64,000 nt of DNA from an uncultured Flavobacteriales bacterium (GTDB lineage: Bacteria > Bacteroidota > Bacteroidia > Flavobacteriales > BACL11), in NCBI GenBank assembly GCA_905478765.1, contig CAJQJY010000002.1, forward strand, positions 1 through 64,000. Direction: 5' to 3'. Under the pieces are notes generated by a model that saw nothing but the letters and a program-made list of their open reading frames with translations, ran no database searches and was not told the origin of the DNA. This document shows, piece by piece, positions 1 to 5,748 of the stretch. How positions within the stretch are numbered: position 1 is the stretch's first letter; each line of letters opens with the position of its first letter. A program made the translations under genes and the position numbers.

Positions 1-1171
1 ATTCAAAATCAACTCCAGTGGTTGTTAAGCTAGATACATTTGATCCAATTGTAATTGAATCAGAACTAGCAGTTAAGTTGACAACATTAGTAATACTTAA
101 GTCAACTGAATCACAAAGCACGTAACACGTATTTTGACAGTCACTTAAAGAAGCATACTGACCTCCCCATGGTCCTGCAGGACCTGCATCGTAACAACCT
201 AAAATTGGATCACAGTCATAAGAATTATTTGGTATTACAGTTTGCCAATTAGTCCCATCCCAAGCAATTGTATCGCAAGTATTACATGCAGATCCTAAAG
301 GAGGGTTTGCTTGCAAATTATGCTGGTACAAATTATCATATAAGAATACATTAGCACAAATAATAAAAGTATCACAGAGAACCCCATTGAAGCCTCCTAT
401 ATTTAGAAAACTTGCTGGATTGGCAGATAAAGGAGCTAATAAATTAATATTACCATCAGTTGAATAACCTTCCCAAAAAGATAAAGTATCTATAACTTCA
501 GGAAAATTATTATTTAAATAGTTAGAGGAGATTGTTAGTGTATCCTGATTATTATTAAGTTCATTAAAATCTATTAGATTACAATCAAAAGTCGGCGTAA
601 AGGACCCATTATATGAGTATGTACTTGTATATACACAACCAGTTGTAGTAGTAACTGTACAAGTGTATGTTCCTGCAGAATTAATGCTTATAGTTTGAGT
701 AGTATCTCCATTTGACCATAAATAAGTGTCGGGATAATTATTTGCACAACCAGCACTACCACCAACATTGTAAGTCCAGTCAGCTGATAAATTAGTACCT
801 GAAGCTGAAATTTGCAAATTACCGTAGACACATGGGTTTATTAAAATAAAAACATAAACTGAATCTGTATCTTGACATGTATTAGATGTTGCAACATCTG
901 TATATGTTACAGACAAAGTAACATATGAAGATGTAACATTAGATAAATCTCCATAAGTATGACAAGGATTTTGTTGAGTTGATGTAGTGCCATCTCCAAA
1001 GTCCCATAAATAAGATACTGAGTAATTTGTTGAGAAGCCACCTACAGCAGAACTATCAGAAAAATTTACAGTTCCTGAAGCTCCATTGTCAGAAATTGGA
1101 TTTGAATTACATTGTGCTTGTACATTTATAAAAGCTATAGCAGTTACAAGTGTAAGTATTAATTTTTTCAT
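1..1171 (-). CDS. Secreted PKD-domain protein, 3' part missing (left edge)
   Basis: The frame opens at ATG 1171 and stays open to the window edge, giving about 390 residues without a stop, so the C-terminus lies outside. It starts with a signal peptide (MKKLILTLVTAIAFINVQAQ) followed by a PKD-like domain with the typical YLWDFGDGT motif at about residues 54-62. A second Ig/PKD-like segment with YLWSNGDTTQT lies near residue 150. Further on there is a Cys-rich segment (YDCDPILGCYDAG ... SLSDCQNTC, encoded near 124-222) of a kind seen in large Bacteroidota surface adhesins. It is probably a T9SS-exported surface or extracellular protein, but the sorting domain is not visible. The promoter region carries the same palindrome found beside the Crp-like gene at 1355-1924. 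Function unknown. Confidence 0.85.
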   Translation of the reverse strand, partial: MKKLILTLVTAIAFINVQAQCNSNPISDNGASGTVNFSDSSAVGGFSTNYSVSYLWDFGDGTTSTQQNPCHTYGDLSNVTSSYVTLSVTYTDVATSNTCQDTDSVYVFILINPCVYGNLQISASGTNLSADWTYNVGGSAGCANNYPDTYLWSNGDTTQTISINSAGTYTCTVTTTTGCVYTSTYSYNGSFTPTFDCNLIDFNELNNNQDTLTISSNYLNNNFPEVIDTLSFWEGYSTDGNINLLAPLSANPASFLNIGGFNGVLCDTFIICANVFLYDNLYQHNLQANPPLGSACNTCDTIAWDGTNWQTVIPNNSYDCDPILGCYDAGPAGPWGGQYASLSDCQNTCYVLCDSVDLSITNVVNLTASSDSITIGSNVSSLTTTGVDFE

Positions 1172-1201: not shown

Positions 1202-1245
1202 CAATAATAGAGACTTTTTTTTTGTAATAAATTAACATATGTTAA
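1202..1245 (-). promoter_or_regulatory. Palindrome TTAACATATGTTAA plus -7 element upstream of the PKD gene
   Basis: A perfect 14-bp palindrome, TTAACATATGTTAA, lies at 1232-1245. On the minus strand, exactly 22 nt further on, is TATTATTG (1209 to 1202), one mismatch from the Bacteroidota -7 consensus TAnnTTTG. The PKD gene starts 30 nt after that. The same palindrome and spacing occur twice in the 1963-2036 region. Inferred: an activator or repressor site for the adjacent Crp-like protein. Confidence 0.6.
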
Positions 1246-1354
1246 AAAAATCAACTTAACCTTAAAAAAACTTACACATCCAAACAACTAATTATGATAA
1301 GAAATTAGTAGATTACATTCAATAACTGAAGCTTAAAATATGAATAATAATAAA

Positions 1355-1924
1355 CTATTTCTGAGTCCTAATTCGGCTCAAGCTCTGCTGAGTAATACCC
1401 AGGTAAGAGGCAATATGATAATTTTTTGCAACAGATTCCATTTTTGGGAAATCGGCTGTAAAATTAATATATCTATCTCGAGCATTAAGTTGTAATTGAT
1501 TCACTATTCTTTTGTTTAGTCTCACAAAAGAATTCTCTAGATTTTTTCTGTGAAAAGTTTCGATCTCAGGAAATTTTTCAAAAACTTTTTCAATACTTAG
1601 TTTGTCTGATTGTAAAACAATACAATCAGTAAGGCACTCAACAGTTAAAATTGCTTCTCCTTTACCATAATATGCAATATAATCACTTATCCACCAATCT
1701 TTAATTGCAAATTGTACAGTGTGCTCTTTACCATTCTCACAAATCACATATGACCTTAAACAACCACTAAGTACAAAATAAGTATCTGTAACTTTAGATT
1801 GCCCTTGTGTTATTAAAATTTCCCCTTTTTTAAATTCCCTAATTTTAATAATTGATGAAATAAGAAATTTAGCTTCATCATTTATATCTATGTTTTTATT
1901 TAAGTACTTAAAGAAATCTTGCAT
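1355..1924 (-). CDS. Crp/Fnr family transcriptional regulator
   Basis: A 189-residue protein of the cyclic-nucleotide-binding regulator type common in Bacteroidota. The N-terminal beta-roll (about 15-115) contains KKGEILITQGQ and YFVLSGCLRSY, typical of the cNMP-binding fold. A dimerisation helix follows, then a short C-terminal helix-turn-helix (YHIASYLGITQQSLSRIR, about 168-186). No Cys cluster for an Fe-S centre is visible, so an Fnr-like oxygen sensor is unlikely. The ligand is unknown. The gene is divergent from an oxidoreductase, and a perfect palindrome lies 68 nt or more upstream of its start, so autoregulation is likely. ATG at 1924 is the natural start, with TATATTTG on the minus strand at 1970-1963 as the probable -7 element. 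Confidence 0.88.
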   Translation of the reverse strand: MQDFFKYLNKNIDINDEAKFLISSIIKIREFKKGEILITQGQSKVTDTYFVLSGCLRSYVICENGKEHTVQFAIKDWWISDYIAYYGKGEAILTVECLTDCIVLQSDKLSIEKVFEKFPEIETFHRKNLENSFVRLNKRIVNQLQLNARDRYINFTADFPKMESVAKNYHIASYLGITQQSLSRIRTQK

Positions 1925-1962
1925 TTTATTTTAAATCTAAATAAATTTATTAAAACCTAATA

Positions 1963-2036
1963 CAAATATAATGATATAAATAATTTTGAAAGTTAACATA
2001 TGTTAATCTTATACTAATTATTTTATTATTGTTTTG
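1963..2036. promoter_or_regulatory. Divergent promoter with central palindrome TTAACATATGTTAA (1993-2006)
   Basis: The perfect 14-bp palindrome at 1993-2006 is flanked on both sides by exactly 22 nt and then a -7-like element: TATATTTG on the minus strand (1970 to 1963, towards the regulator) and TTGTTTTG on the plus strand (2029-2036, towards the oxidoreductase; one mismatch to TAnnTTTG). The palindrome centre is 36.5 nt from the terminal G of each element. If transcription starts about 5 nt after that G, the site is centred near -41.5, the classical position of a class II Crp-type activator. The start-site estimate is inference. Confidence 0.65.
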
Positions 2037-2052
2037 CATAAAAATAATTTAT

Positions 2053-3057
2053 ATGAAAGCATTACTAATAAAAGGATATGGAGATATAGAATCTAATATC
2101 TCTTTTGAAGATATTAAAGAACCAACTTGTGGTAAAAAACAAATATTAGTAGAAATCTATTCTGCTGGAGTAAACCCAATTGATTATAAAATTATTGAGG
2201 GTCAGCTAAAAGCATTCCAAAAATTAAAATTTCCTGCTCCAATTGGATTTGATGTTGCAGGAGTAGTTATAGAAAAAGGAGACGAAGTAAATAATTTCAA
2301 TATTGGAGATAAGGTTTACTCAAGAGTTTCAGGAAATGAACCTGGAACATTTGCAGAGTTTATAGCTATAGATTGCAACTTAGCTTCTCACATGCCTAAT
2401 AATTTAAGCTTTAACGAAGCAAGTAGCTTACCATTAGTAGCTCTTACTACAATCCAAAGTTTTGAAAAAGCAGAATTAAAAGCAAATGACAAAATTCTAA
2501 TTCATGCTGGTTCTGGTGGGATAGGAACATTTGCAATCCAATATGCAAAAAGCAAAGGTGCTATTGTCTACACAACAACAAGCACCAATAATGTTGAATG
2601 GGTAGGAGAATTAGGTGCAGATGTAGTAATTGATTATAAAAAAGATAATTACCTAGATATTGTAAAAGATATAGATGTTGTTTATGATACTTTGGGAGGA
2701 AAATACACCACAGATGCTTTTAATATAATTAAAGAAGGAGGAAAAGTAATAAGTATTGCTGGTGATATAGATAAAGAAACATCTATAGAGTTAGGATTAA
2801 ATACATTTGTTAGATTTTTACTTTCATTAAAAAGGATGAAAATCACAAAATTAATTACTAAAAAATCAGCATATTATAAATTCATTTTAATGAATCCTAG
2901 CGGCAGTCAATTAAAGGATTTAAAATTACTAATAGAAGAAAATAAAATAAAAGCAATCATCGACAAATCATTTAACTTTTCTGAATCAATAAAAGCCCTT
3001 CTTTATCTAAAAAAAGGTAGAGCAAAAGGTAAGATAGTTATTGAGATAAAGAAGTAG
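2053..3057 (+). CDS. Zinc-independent MDR-family NAD(P)-dependent oxidoreductase
   Basis: A 334-residue medium-chain dehydrogenase/reductase of the quinone-oxidoreductase type. A GroES-like N-terminal domain (EIYSAGVNPIDYKI, GFDVAGVV) is followed by a Rossmann domain with the nucleotide-binding loop HAGSGGIGTFAIQYAK. The Cys/His/Glu ligands of the catalytic zinc in alcohol dehydrogenases are absent, so it probably reduces quinones or enones with NADPH; the substrate is not known. I chose ATG 2053 because the longer frame from TTG 2029 starts inside the promoter -7 element. The gene is divergent from, and probably controlled by, the Crp-like regulator. Confidence 0.85.
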   Translation: MKALLIKGYGDIESNISFEDIKEPTCGKKQILVEIYSAGVNPIDYKIIEGQLKAFQKLKFPAPIGFDVAGVVIEKGDEVNNFNIGDKVYSRVSGNEPGTFAEFIAIDCNLASHMPNNLSFNEASSLPLVALTTIQSFEKAELKANDKILIHAGSGGIGTFAIQYAKSKGAIVYTTTSTNNVEWVGELGADVVIDYKKDNYLDIVKDIDVVYDTLGGKYTTDAFNIIKEGGKVISIAGDIDKETSIELGLNTFVRFLLSLKRMKITKLITKKSAYYKFILMNPSGSQLKDLKLLIEENKIKAIIDKSFNFSESIKALLYLKKGRAKGKIVIEIKK

Positions 3058-3807: not shown

Positions 3808-4332
3808 TTAAAATGAGAAAATACTAAAATGAACGGTACCGTATCTTCTAAGTTTTATATTTTCTCCATCAAATTGTATATCCTTATTATGTTCAATAAT
3901 TAAGAGTCCTTCTTCTTTTATCAGTTTTTTGTTTATGATTAAATCCTTCATTTCTTTGTAATTCTCATAACCATAGGGCGGGTCAGCAAAAATAAAGTTA
4001 AATTGTTGCTTGCAATTTTCTAAGTATTTTATACAATCTGATTTAACAGCTGATATATTCAAATCAAGCTTCTTAGTAGTTTGTTCTATGTATTCTATGC
4101 AATGAAAATTATTGTCAATAGCCGTGACTTTTTCTACTCCTCTTGATGCAAATTCGTAAGCAATATTGCCAGTTCCAGAATATAAGTCCAAAACTGTTTT
4201 TTCATCAAAATAGTAACCACTTTCAATAATGCTGAAAAGTGCTTCTTTTGCCCTGTCTGTAGTTGGACGTACAGGCAGTTTATCTGGAGCAATTAATCTT
4301 CTGCTTCTGTGGGTTCCTGCAATTATGCGCAT
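3808..4332 (-). CDS. rsmD: 16S rRNA (guanine(966)-N(2))-methyltransferase
   Basis: RsmD methylates G966 of 16S rRNA in the 30S subunit using S-adenosylmethionine. The protein (174 aa, family length) begins with the characteristic MRIIAGTHRSRRL and RPTTDRAKEALF. The SAM-binding motif VLDLYSGTGNIAYEFASRG lies at about 47-65, and the catalytic DPPY motif (FADPPYGY) near 115-122. Its start overlaps the end of the upstream DUF3822 gene by 10 bp, so the two are probably translated together. The DUF3822-rsmD-coaD order is conserved in many Bacteroidota. Confidence 0.95.
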   Translation of the reverse strand: MRIIAGTHRSRRLIAPDKLPVRPTTDRAKEALFSIIESGYYFDEKTVLDLYSGTGNIAYEFASRGVEKVTAIDNNFHCIEYIEQTTKKLDLNISAVKSDCIKYLENCKQQFNFIFADPPYGYENYKEMKDLIINKKLIKEEGLLIIEHNKDIQFDGENIKLRRYGTVHFSIFSF

Positions 4333-5150
4333 AGTATTTGTGAAAATAAACCAAAATATTTTTGATTTTCTAGTGTGTTAAATTCAAATGGAAACTTTAA
4401 TTGATCTGGTCTTCCCCCAAACTTAATTTTTCGGATGAATTCGTAAAGAAGTTTAAAGTTATCATCATCTTTTGTGATATCACCAAAAAGTAAAGTGTTT
4501 ACAGTGTTAGTATTTAGTTTTAATTGCTCAAAAGAAAATAAAGTAAAGTAGAGAATATCTTCCTTAGTTTCAAAATTAAAACTATTGTTAAAAATAAGTT
4601 TTTCATTTTTGAAAACAGTTATATTAAGTGTATTTTCACATAAATATAAATAGGCAGTAGGCTCAATATTATACTTTTTTGAAAACTCATCAATAAGTAT
4701 GCTTTGTTGAGCTTTTTGTTTTGCGTTTGGAAAATAGGTGGTTGCTATATTATCAAGTTCTTTTGGGATAGAATATGCTAAATGAACATCAATTTCTTTT
4801 AATACATTATTATTGATAATTTCATATGTTTCGCTATTAAGTTTAAGCATTTCTATGGCTGAGTTTTTTGTAAATACCTTTTTTGGAATTAAGGTGCTAG
4901 GAAAATTAACAAAAGCTACAGAGCTAGAAAAAAAATCTGATTTAATTACTTCATCATCATTAATTAGATTTATGATATCATTAGTATTGTTAATTTGGTA
5001 ATTCTTAAAATATTCCATACTAAATGTAGATGTATTTATAATGCAGTAAGAAAAATGTGTAAGACCTATCTGAACGGATACATGATAGATATCTGAGAGA
5101 GCAGTGTTAAAGCTACTGGCTTGTATCTTATTCGCTTTTCCAGTTTCCAT
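4323..5150 (-). CDS. DUF3822 family protein
   Basis: A 275-residue protein that I assign to the DUF3822 family from its position directly upstream of rsmD and features such as YHVSVQIGLTHFSYCIIN near the N-terminus and the repeated short beta-strand pattern. The fold of this family resembles actin-like or PilM-like ATPases, but I see no clear ATP-binding motif and assign no activity. No signal peptide or membrane segment is evident, so it is probably cytoplasmic. It overlaps the upstream membrane-anchored gene by 23 bp and rsmD by 10 bp, making a tightly coupled three-gene unit. Confidence 0.7.
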   Translation of the reverse strand: METGKANKIQASSFNTALSDIYHVSVQIGLTHFSYCIINTSTFSMEYFKNYQINNTNDIINLINDDEVIKSDFFSSSVAFVNFPSTLIPKKVFTKNSAIEMLKLNSETYEIINNNVLKEIDVHLAYSIPKELDNIATTYFPNAKQKAQQSILIDEFSKKYNIEPTAYLYLCENTLNITVFKNEKLIFNNSFNFETKEDILYFTLFSFEQLKLNTNTVNTLLFGDITKDDDNFKLLYEFIRKIKFGGRPDQLKFPFEFNTLENQKYFGLFSQILCA

Positions 5151-5748
5151 TTAATGATGCTTCATCCATTGATCCTACTTTTAAAAGAGCATCTAACTGA
5201 TAGCTTTTGTTTTTTGCATCAAGCCCAGTAAATACAGTACCATAATTTGTAGAAATTTCAAATACTTGAACAATCACTTTTCCTTTCTCAACTTGCCCTG
5301 CATCAATTGAATATACTTCATTTGAATAGGGTACAGTCGTTAAATTAGCAATATCTAATGGGAAATTCTCGTTTCTACTATTAAGGTATGCTTCATCAAA
5401 AACAGTTTCTTTAGCTAATACATAAGCAGTATCTCTGCTAATAATTCCTAGCTCTAATGCTTGAAAATCAGTTAATGTATCAGGAGTTTCACCTATTGCT
5501 TTTACAATTGATACAGAATCATTTTCTAAAAAATGTGTAAGTACTCTAAAATTATCAGCAAATGTTCCTTTAGCTTGTTTGTATTTAGTTTGTACTTGTC
5601 TTAAATCTTTAAGTTTTTGTACATTTTCTGAAATTCTAACTTTAGCTTCTTTGTTAAACTCAATTTCACTATCAATACTATTAAATACAAAATAAGCTAA
5701 TATCATGTTTAATGGAATAAGTATAAGTGCAATTTGTTTGGCTTTCAT
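5128..5748 (-). CDS. Membrane-anchored protein of unknown function, first gene of the rsmD group
   Basis: A 206-residue protein with one N-terminal membrane segment (about 6-24: IALILIPLNMILAYFVFNS), followed by a short charged helical region (27-62) likely to form a coiled coil, then a mostly beta C-terminal part. I do not recognise a characterised family. The topology (N-in, bulk outside the membrane) and the paired downstream DUF3822 gene resemble PilN/PilO plus PilM-like arrangements, but this is only an analogy. TAAGTTTG on the minus strand about 20 nt upstream of the ATG is the likely -7 element. Confidence 0.7.
   Translation of the reverse strand: MKAKQIALILIPLNMILAYFVFNSIDSEIEFNKEAKVRISENVQKLKDLRQVQTKYKQAKGTFADNFRVLTHFLENDSVSIVKAIGETPDTLTDFQALELGIISRDTAYVLAKETVFDEAYLNSRNENFPLDIANLTTVPYSNEVYSIDAGQVEKGKVIVQVFEISTNYGTVFTGLDAKNKSYQLDALLKVGSMDEASLNGNWKSE

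Follow-up and report, generated by a model that had tools for sequence, protein, structure and literature searches.

A Crp/Fnr-like regulator gene flanked by two copies of a palindrome

The window analysed here is a stretch of 64,000 nucleotides from an uncultured Flavobacteriales bacterium. Close to its beginning, a gene encoding a Crp/Fnr-like regulator lies between a gene for a PKD-domain secreted protein and a divergently oriented oxidoreductase gene, and a copy of a 14-bp palindrome, the putative operator, is found on each side of the regulator gene. The features are listed below, with the -7 elements scored against the six defined positions of TAnnTTTG.

2..1171, minus strand: PKD-domain secreted protein, truncated at the contig end (PF18911, 1e-6)
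1202..1209, minus strand: -7 element of the PKD-gene promoter, TATTATTG, 5/6, 22 nt from the operator
1232..1245, no strand: second operator copy (putative), 3' of the regulator gene and upstream of the PKD gene
1355..1924, minus strand: Crp/Fnr-like regulator P0001, 189 aa (PF00027, 5e-11; PDB 3dn7, 5e-29)
1361..1390, minus strand: recognition helix, TQQSLSRIR region, residues 179-188 (DSSP of the model and alignment)
1963..1970, minus strand: regulator -7 element, TATATTTG, 6/6, 22 nt from the operator
1993..2006, no strand: palindromic operator (putative), TTAACATATGTTAA, between the divergent regulator and oxidoreductase promoters
2029..2036, plus strand: candidate oxidoreductase -7 element, TTGTTTTG, 5/6, 22 nt from the operator
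2053..3057, plus strand: quinone-oxidoreductase-like zinc-type dehydrogenase family protein P2 (TIGR02824, 1e-50, below the model cut-off; PF13602, PF08240)

The regulator combines a cyclic-nucleotide-binding fold with a C-terminal winged helix. The cNMP-binding beta-barrel, long helix and C-terminal HTH characteristic of the Crp/Fnr superfamily were all recognised, based on the PF00027 match, an AlphaFold model with a pLDDT of 92, and a Foldseek search in which 3dn7, FNR and CRP were the nearest structures. The winged helix was too divergent to be matched by the Pfam winged-helix models, and the R-S/T-A motif of the cAMP pocket of CRP was not evident when the corresponding stretch, QFAIKDWWISDYIAYYGKGEAILTVECL, was inspected by eye. 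The recognition helix reads ITQQSLSRIR.

The window operator has the form TTAAC-ATAT-GTTAA. The original prediction, made from the letters of the window, held that the palindrome occurs twice with no third copy, and this proved correct both in the window and throughout the 1.6-Mb genome (98.6% complete), where promoters were counted by pattern search: TTAACATATGTTAA was found at 1232-1245 and 1993-2006 only, on either side of the regulator gene, with none of the genome-wide scatter that had been named as evidence against the idea. The number of exact copies expected by chance, from dinucleotide shuffles of the window, was 0.00. Allowing up to two mismatches gave 2 matches in the window against 1.91 expected, and a cloud of near-copies is thus absent, while the full pattern of site, spacer and -7 element with up to three mismatches gave 5 matches, compared to 0.65 ± 0.80 in the shuffles (largest value 3). 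One-mismatch copies on two other contigs (C4 and C12) lacked a -7 element at 22 nt and were dropped as sites. An exact copy in one other genome (G026) was regarded as background, as it falls midway within a 1046-aa ORF and that genome gave no regulator match.

Promoter geometry

The distance from the operator to a TAnnTTTG-like box was exactly 22 nt at all three window promoters, just as had been claimed. The boxes themselves were confirmed less evenly: the regulator promoter carries a complete element and the PKD-gene promoter one with a single deviation, while the oxidoreductase assignment is the weakest of the three, since a competing TATTATTG occurs at 17 nt in the same promoter. In Flavobacterium psychrophilum, for which transcription starts have been mapped, the sigma-A box TAnnTTTG spans -12 to -5 (PMC9723704). 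A -7 box at this position, together with the 22-nt spacer, places the 14-bp site at -48 to -35 with its centre at -41.5, and starts are predicted at approximately 1958 (regulator), 1197 (PKD gene) and 2041 (oxidoreductase). The class II position proposed earlier, a purely geometric assignment with the start taken from Flavobacterium, is thereby supported, both by the Flavobacterium -7 position and by retention of the geometry in relatives and across the family.

Conservation in close relatives

The regulator is patchily distributed: a search of 36 other genomes of the family found it in few. The order of regulator, site, 22 nt, -7 element and PKD gene was kept in three relatives (G013, G015 and G017), whose PKD orthologues adjoining the regulator are 87%, 81% and 77% identical, respectively, and have promoters with 6/6 -7 elements at the same spacing as in the window. 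In G013 (regulator 67% identical), TTATCATATGTTAA precedes the regulator at 23 nt from TATTTTTG, and TTAACATATGTTAA precedes the PKD gene at 22 nt from TATTTTTG. The regulator of G015 (47% identical) is preceded by TTAGCATATGTTAA-22-TATATTTG and the PKD gene there by TTAACATATGTTAA-22-TAATTTTG, while in G017 the end of the regulator is followed by TTATCATAAGTTAA-22-TAGTTTTG and then the PKD gene. Spacer sequences, from site to -7 element, are not the same among these loci, which indicates that more than recent shared ancestry of the entire region is involved. In a fourth relative (G024), a one-mismatch site lies beside a broken regulator remnant. PKD paralogues away from the regulator lack an operator site. 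Oxidoreductase orthologues were found directly behind operator-22-TAnnTTTG in six relatives.

The divergent, autoregulatory copy of the operator was seen only in the close lineage of the window, and the main conserved site is instead the copy behind the regulator, which the original prediction had overlooked. Retention of site and spacing in relatives had been singled out there as informative, and both were kept; from these comparisons, the site and its spacing are a near-certain regulator-linked feature. The small regulon suggested at the same time (regulator, oxidoreductase and surface protein) is supported, with the oxidoreductase link kept in the six relatives and the PKD link in three relatives and a remnant, and the roles of these two genes in the regulon must be considered less certain than the site and spacing.

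Several further observations were made at these loci. On G024 contig C15 (1-465, L202), the regulator is degraded while the operator and PKD promoter are still recognisable, and the loss of the regulator is apparently recent. PKD genes of the window type are multi-copy and often lie at contig ends (window 1-1171; G024 C15 and C31; G015 C64), and the window's own contig starts inside one, which makes these repeats the probable cause of the assembly breaks. The end of the G013 homologue raised the suspicion that the PKD protein is exported by the T9SS, but no match to an NCBIfam model was obtained. In another locus (L035), a tandem pair of Crp-like regulators (4001-4579 and 4642-5220) has the palindrome TTAACAAATGTTAA upstream of the first gene, though without a good -7 element at 22 nt. 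Finally, the Crp-like gene of L225 (oriented 3814-4338) contains an in-frame stop within the recognition helix, TPV*LSRIR, pointing to a possible pseudogene or assembly error.

A probable regulator-linked operator across the family

When 396 genomes of the order were searched for TTAACANNTGTTAA-N22-TANNTTTG with at most one mismatch, 62 matches were obtained, compared to 13 for a reversed control. A Crp-like gene, 22-42% identical to that of the window, ended directly before the site in 14 of 20 loci inspected. These 20 loci had been picked by the pattern itself, and regulator homologues were therefore also scanned without that filter. A scan for 14-bp palindromes behind 104 homologous regulators, assuming no operator sequence, gave a peak at 22 nt (25 of 80 TAnnTTTG elements), with 0-2 at most other spacings, 11 at spacing 35 and 6 at spacing 8. 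An explicit motif (at least 15 of 17 matches) was found at spacing 22 in 64 of 88 regulators with at least 40% identity, whereas the remaining spacings between 12 and 35 gave 0-6 and shuffles none; since the motif was fitted on these same loci, the comparison between spacings, and not the raw count, constitutes the fair test. The motif usually begins 4-7 nt past the stop codon of the regulator, and positions -46A, -44C and -41A, though unused in the selection, were invariant in 81 of 81 sites.

The operator sequence varies among homologues (TTACCATAGGGTAA; TTAYCATACATCAA), with half-sites in most cases of the TTACC or TTGAT type. The TTACCATAGGGTAA form was not enriched in 296 genomes drawn evenly from the phylum (8 matches, compared to 17 in the control), probably due to the small number of these genomes with the regulator, and this result ties the operator to the regulator locus rather than marking it as a general promoter element. 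A similar arrangement, TTTACATATGTTAA-22-TATTTTTG, was kept in seven genomes of genus g20 (L236 3997, L237 4088), with its -7-like part inside a terminator hairpin; it is probably not the same feature and was not counted.

Covariation of recognition helix and operator

The residue four positions before the helix arginine (R-4) was compared with operator base 12, which belongs to the proximal half-site. Glutamine occurred with T in 36 cases and with C in none, while glutamate occurred with T in 2 and with C in 44, giving a Fisher value of 3e-21 by count, with kinship ignored. Placed on the tree, these correspond to five helix changes and three base changes, of which 2 were concordant, 0 discordant and 1 uninformative, and the sign test was not significant. 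The association was for this reason used as support and not as proof, and it is suggestive of the window protein reading the site. A simple helix-to-operator code leaves one feature unaccounted for, namely the constant distal TTA: the distal half-site does not track the helix residue, reading TTA in 43 of 46 glutamate regulators, and the operators of this clade are barely palindromic. More distant glutamate regulators (e.g. L025 and L034) have symmetric TTGAT-N4-ATCAA sites, as does FNR.

Likely target genes and signal

The genes beside the operator in relatives mostly encode detoxification enzymes. The largest group, with 52 loci, is that of HchA glyoxalase III, one representative of which matches the NCBIfam equivalog NF003168 (9e-120), followed by quinone oxidoreductases orthologous to that of the window (6) and nitroreductases (3), while small groups resemble, as judged from sequence, aldehyde-reductase-type alcohol dehydrogenases and quinol monooxygenases. 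Since these targets mainly remove reactive aldehydes and quinones, the signal to which the regulator answers is most likely electrophile or redox stress. Two conserved cysteines could be the sensors, Cys55 (kept in 27 of 34 homologues) and Cys97 (30 of 34). The PKD surface protein fits poorly with this detoxification theme.

Mechanism and alternative explanations

We favour, with a probability of about 0.78, a Crp/Fnr-family class II activator cassette with an electrophile-detoxification output, in which the palindrome would be the operator of the adjacent regulator. Starting from the site, its spacing and conservation, the neighbouring genes and the helix covariation as read in the genomes, we infer that a regulator dimer would bind the palindrome centred at -41.5 and activate sigma-A promoters, namely those of its own gene, the divergent quinone oxidoreductase and the PKD surface protein. 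The inducer would be electrophile or redox stress, perhaps sensed via the conserved cysteines. The window would then represent one lineage's form of a cassette widespread in Bacteroidota, with the order regulator gene, stop codon, approximately 5 nt, operator, 22 nt, TAnnTTTG and target gene.

The alternative that retains most credit, though we consider it unlikely, is that the regulator binds the same site as a repressor, blocking the polymerase until released by electrophiles. In other bacteria, many of the redox regulators that control quinone reductases are repressors, and the operator covers the -33 region. Against this, a centre at exactly -41.5 is the classical position of a class II activator, and TTG was present within -34 to -26 in just 10 of 81 promoters, as would be expected of activator-dependent ones.

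Another explanation takes the inverted repeat behind the regulator for a weak intrinsic terminator (TTACC-ATAG-GGTAA, then TTTTT) instead of an operator; it draws on the observation that in most homologues the repeat begins approximately 5 nt past the stop codon, with five T after it. The glutamate clade, however, has lost the hairpin (mean RNA energy -0.05 kcal/mol, 43 sites) while keeping the sequence and the 22-nt spacing to TAnnTTTG, in the window lineage a palindrome copy without a T run is also present upstream of the regulator, and an exact distance to a -7 box would be needless for a terminator. The terminator explanation is mostly rejected on these grounds and appears quite improbable. 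A chance palindrome with AT-rich promoter look-alikes deserves hardly any weight: the window is indeed AT-rich and the two-mismatch count is at expectation, but zero exact copies were expected, the arrangement is kept in relatives and the spacing peak extends across the family.

Relation to known systems

The activator cassette favoured here can be compared with PrfA of Listeria, whose box has the consensus tTAACanntGTtAa, is centred at -41.5 and, in one case, is common to the divergent plcA and hly promoters (PMC3443378). Both regulators have the Crp/Fnr fold, both arrangements include one symmetric box for divergent promoters, and the window operator, also at -41.5, is identical to the PrfA-box consensus TTAACANNTGTTAA, an identity missed in the original prediction. 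The window differs in phylum, in its -7 box and in having a small regulon beside the gene; moreover, most homologues of its regulator use TTACC or TTGAT-type half-sites, and PrfA was absent among the 60 profile matches to PDB sequences listed for it. The simplest reading of the identity is convergence within the Crp/Fnr fold.

FNR and the class II promoters of E. coli CRP share the fold and the -41.5 geometry, and the FNR-like pairing of glutamate at R-4 with TTGAT half-sites recurs in the relatives L025 and L034, whereas the window regulator has glutamine at R-4 and a TTAAC half-site, and its site does not read TTGAT-N4-ATCAA. The best match in both sequence and structure is 3dn7, the solved structure of a cyclic-nucleotide-binding-like regulator from Cytophaga hutchinsonii, about whose ligand, operator or regulon the search results are silent. 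HcpR, known from Porphyromonas and Bacteroides and compared by description, is likewise a Bacteroidota Crp/Fnr regulator beside its target gene and active in stress defence, but it uses haem to respond to NO, and its target is hcp rather than aldehyde or quinone enzymes. The hcpR gene of B. thetaiotaomicron has an RNA locus, SnoA, downstream of it (PMC13370916). YqhC, NemR, QorR and MhqR are electrophile regulators with similar aldehyde and quinone target enzymes; they belong to the AraC, TetR, HxlR or MarR families, in contrast to the window regulator, and are mostly repressors.

A candidate small RNA

In four Flavobacteriaceae-like genomes (L222 4143-4290, plus strand; L228 3894-4042, L239 4023-4171 and L240 3908-4056, minus strand), no gene follows operator-22-TAnnTTTG behind the Crp-like gene; in its place comes a conserved stretch of approximately 80-90 nt, GGATTGATAGCTAACCAACCAA, closed by a terminator hairpin with a T run, and beyond it lies a convergent gene. 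The stretch had no Rfam match, and its motif was found in operator context in just 4 of 396 genomes. We regard it as a candidate for a small RNA under the control of the regulator. Terminator-like hairpins approximately 70-90 nt past the -7 element were also seen in L224, L225, L226, L229, L230, L231 and L232, some with a further gene behind, and these stretches are possibly small RNAs or attenuators of unrelated sequence.

Significance

The mechanism proposed, class II activation by a Crp/Fnr protein, would be an ordinary one, while the subfamily is apparently widespread and undescribed, and the comparative evidence for its cassette appears unusually clean. A literature search of incomplete coverage found no published description of the subfamily operator, which is weak evidence of novelty. 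We can only tentatively suggest a large, undescribed Bacteroidota Crp/Fnr activator subfamily in which operator and target promoter come directly after the regulator's stop codon, with sensing of reactive aldehydes or quinones, a readable helix-operator code and, in place of a protein in some Flavobacteriaceae-like genomes, a new small RNA of approximately 90 nt as the output.

In Bacteroidota, a phylum with unusual promoters, operators and inducers are known for only a minority of the Crp/Fnr-like proteins. Here, for an entire subfamily, one finding yields an operator together with a promoter geometry and likely targets, as well as a recognition code open to testing, and points to a likely stress-responsive switch, with HchA, quinone reductase and nitroreductase as outputs, that is testable in cultivable species.
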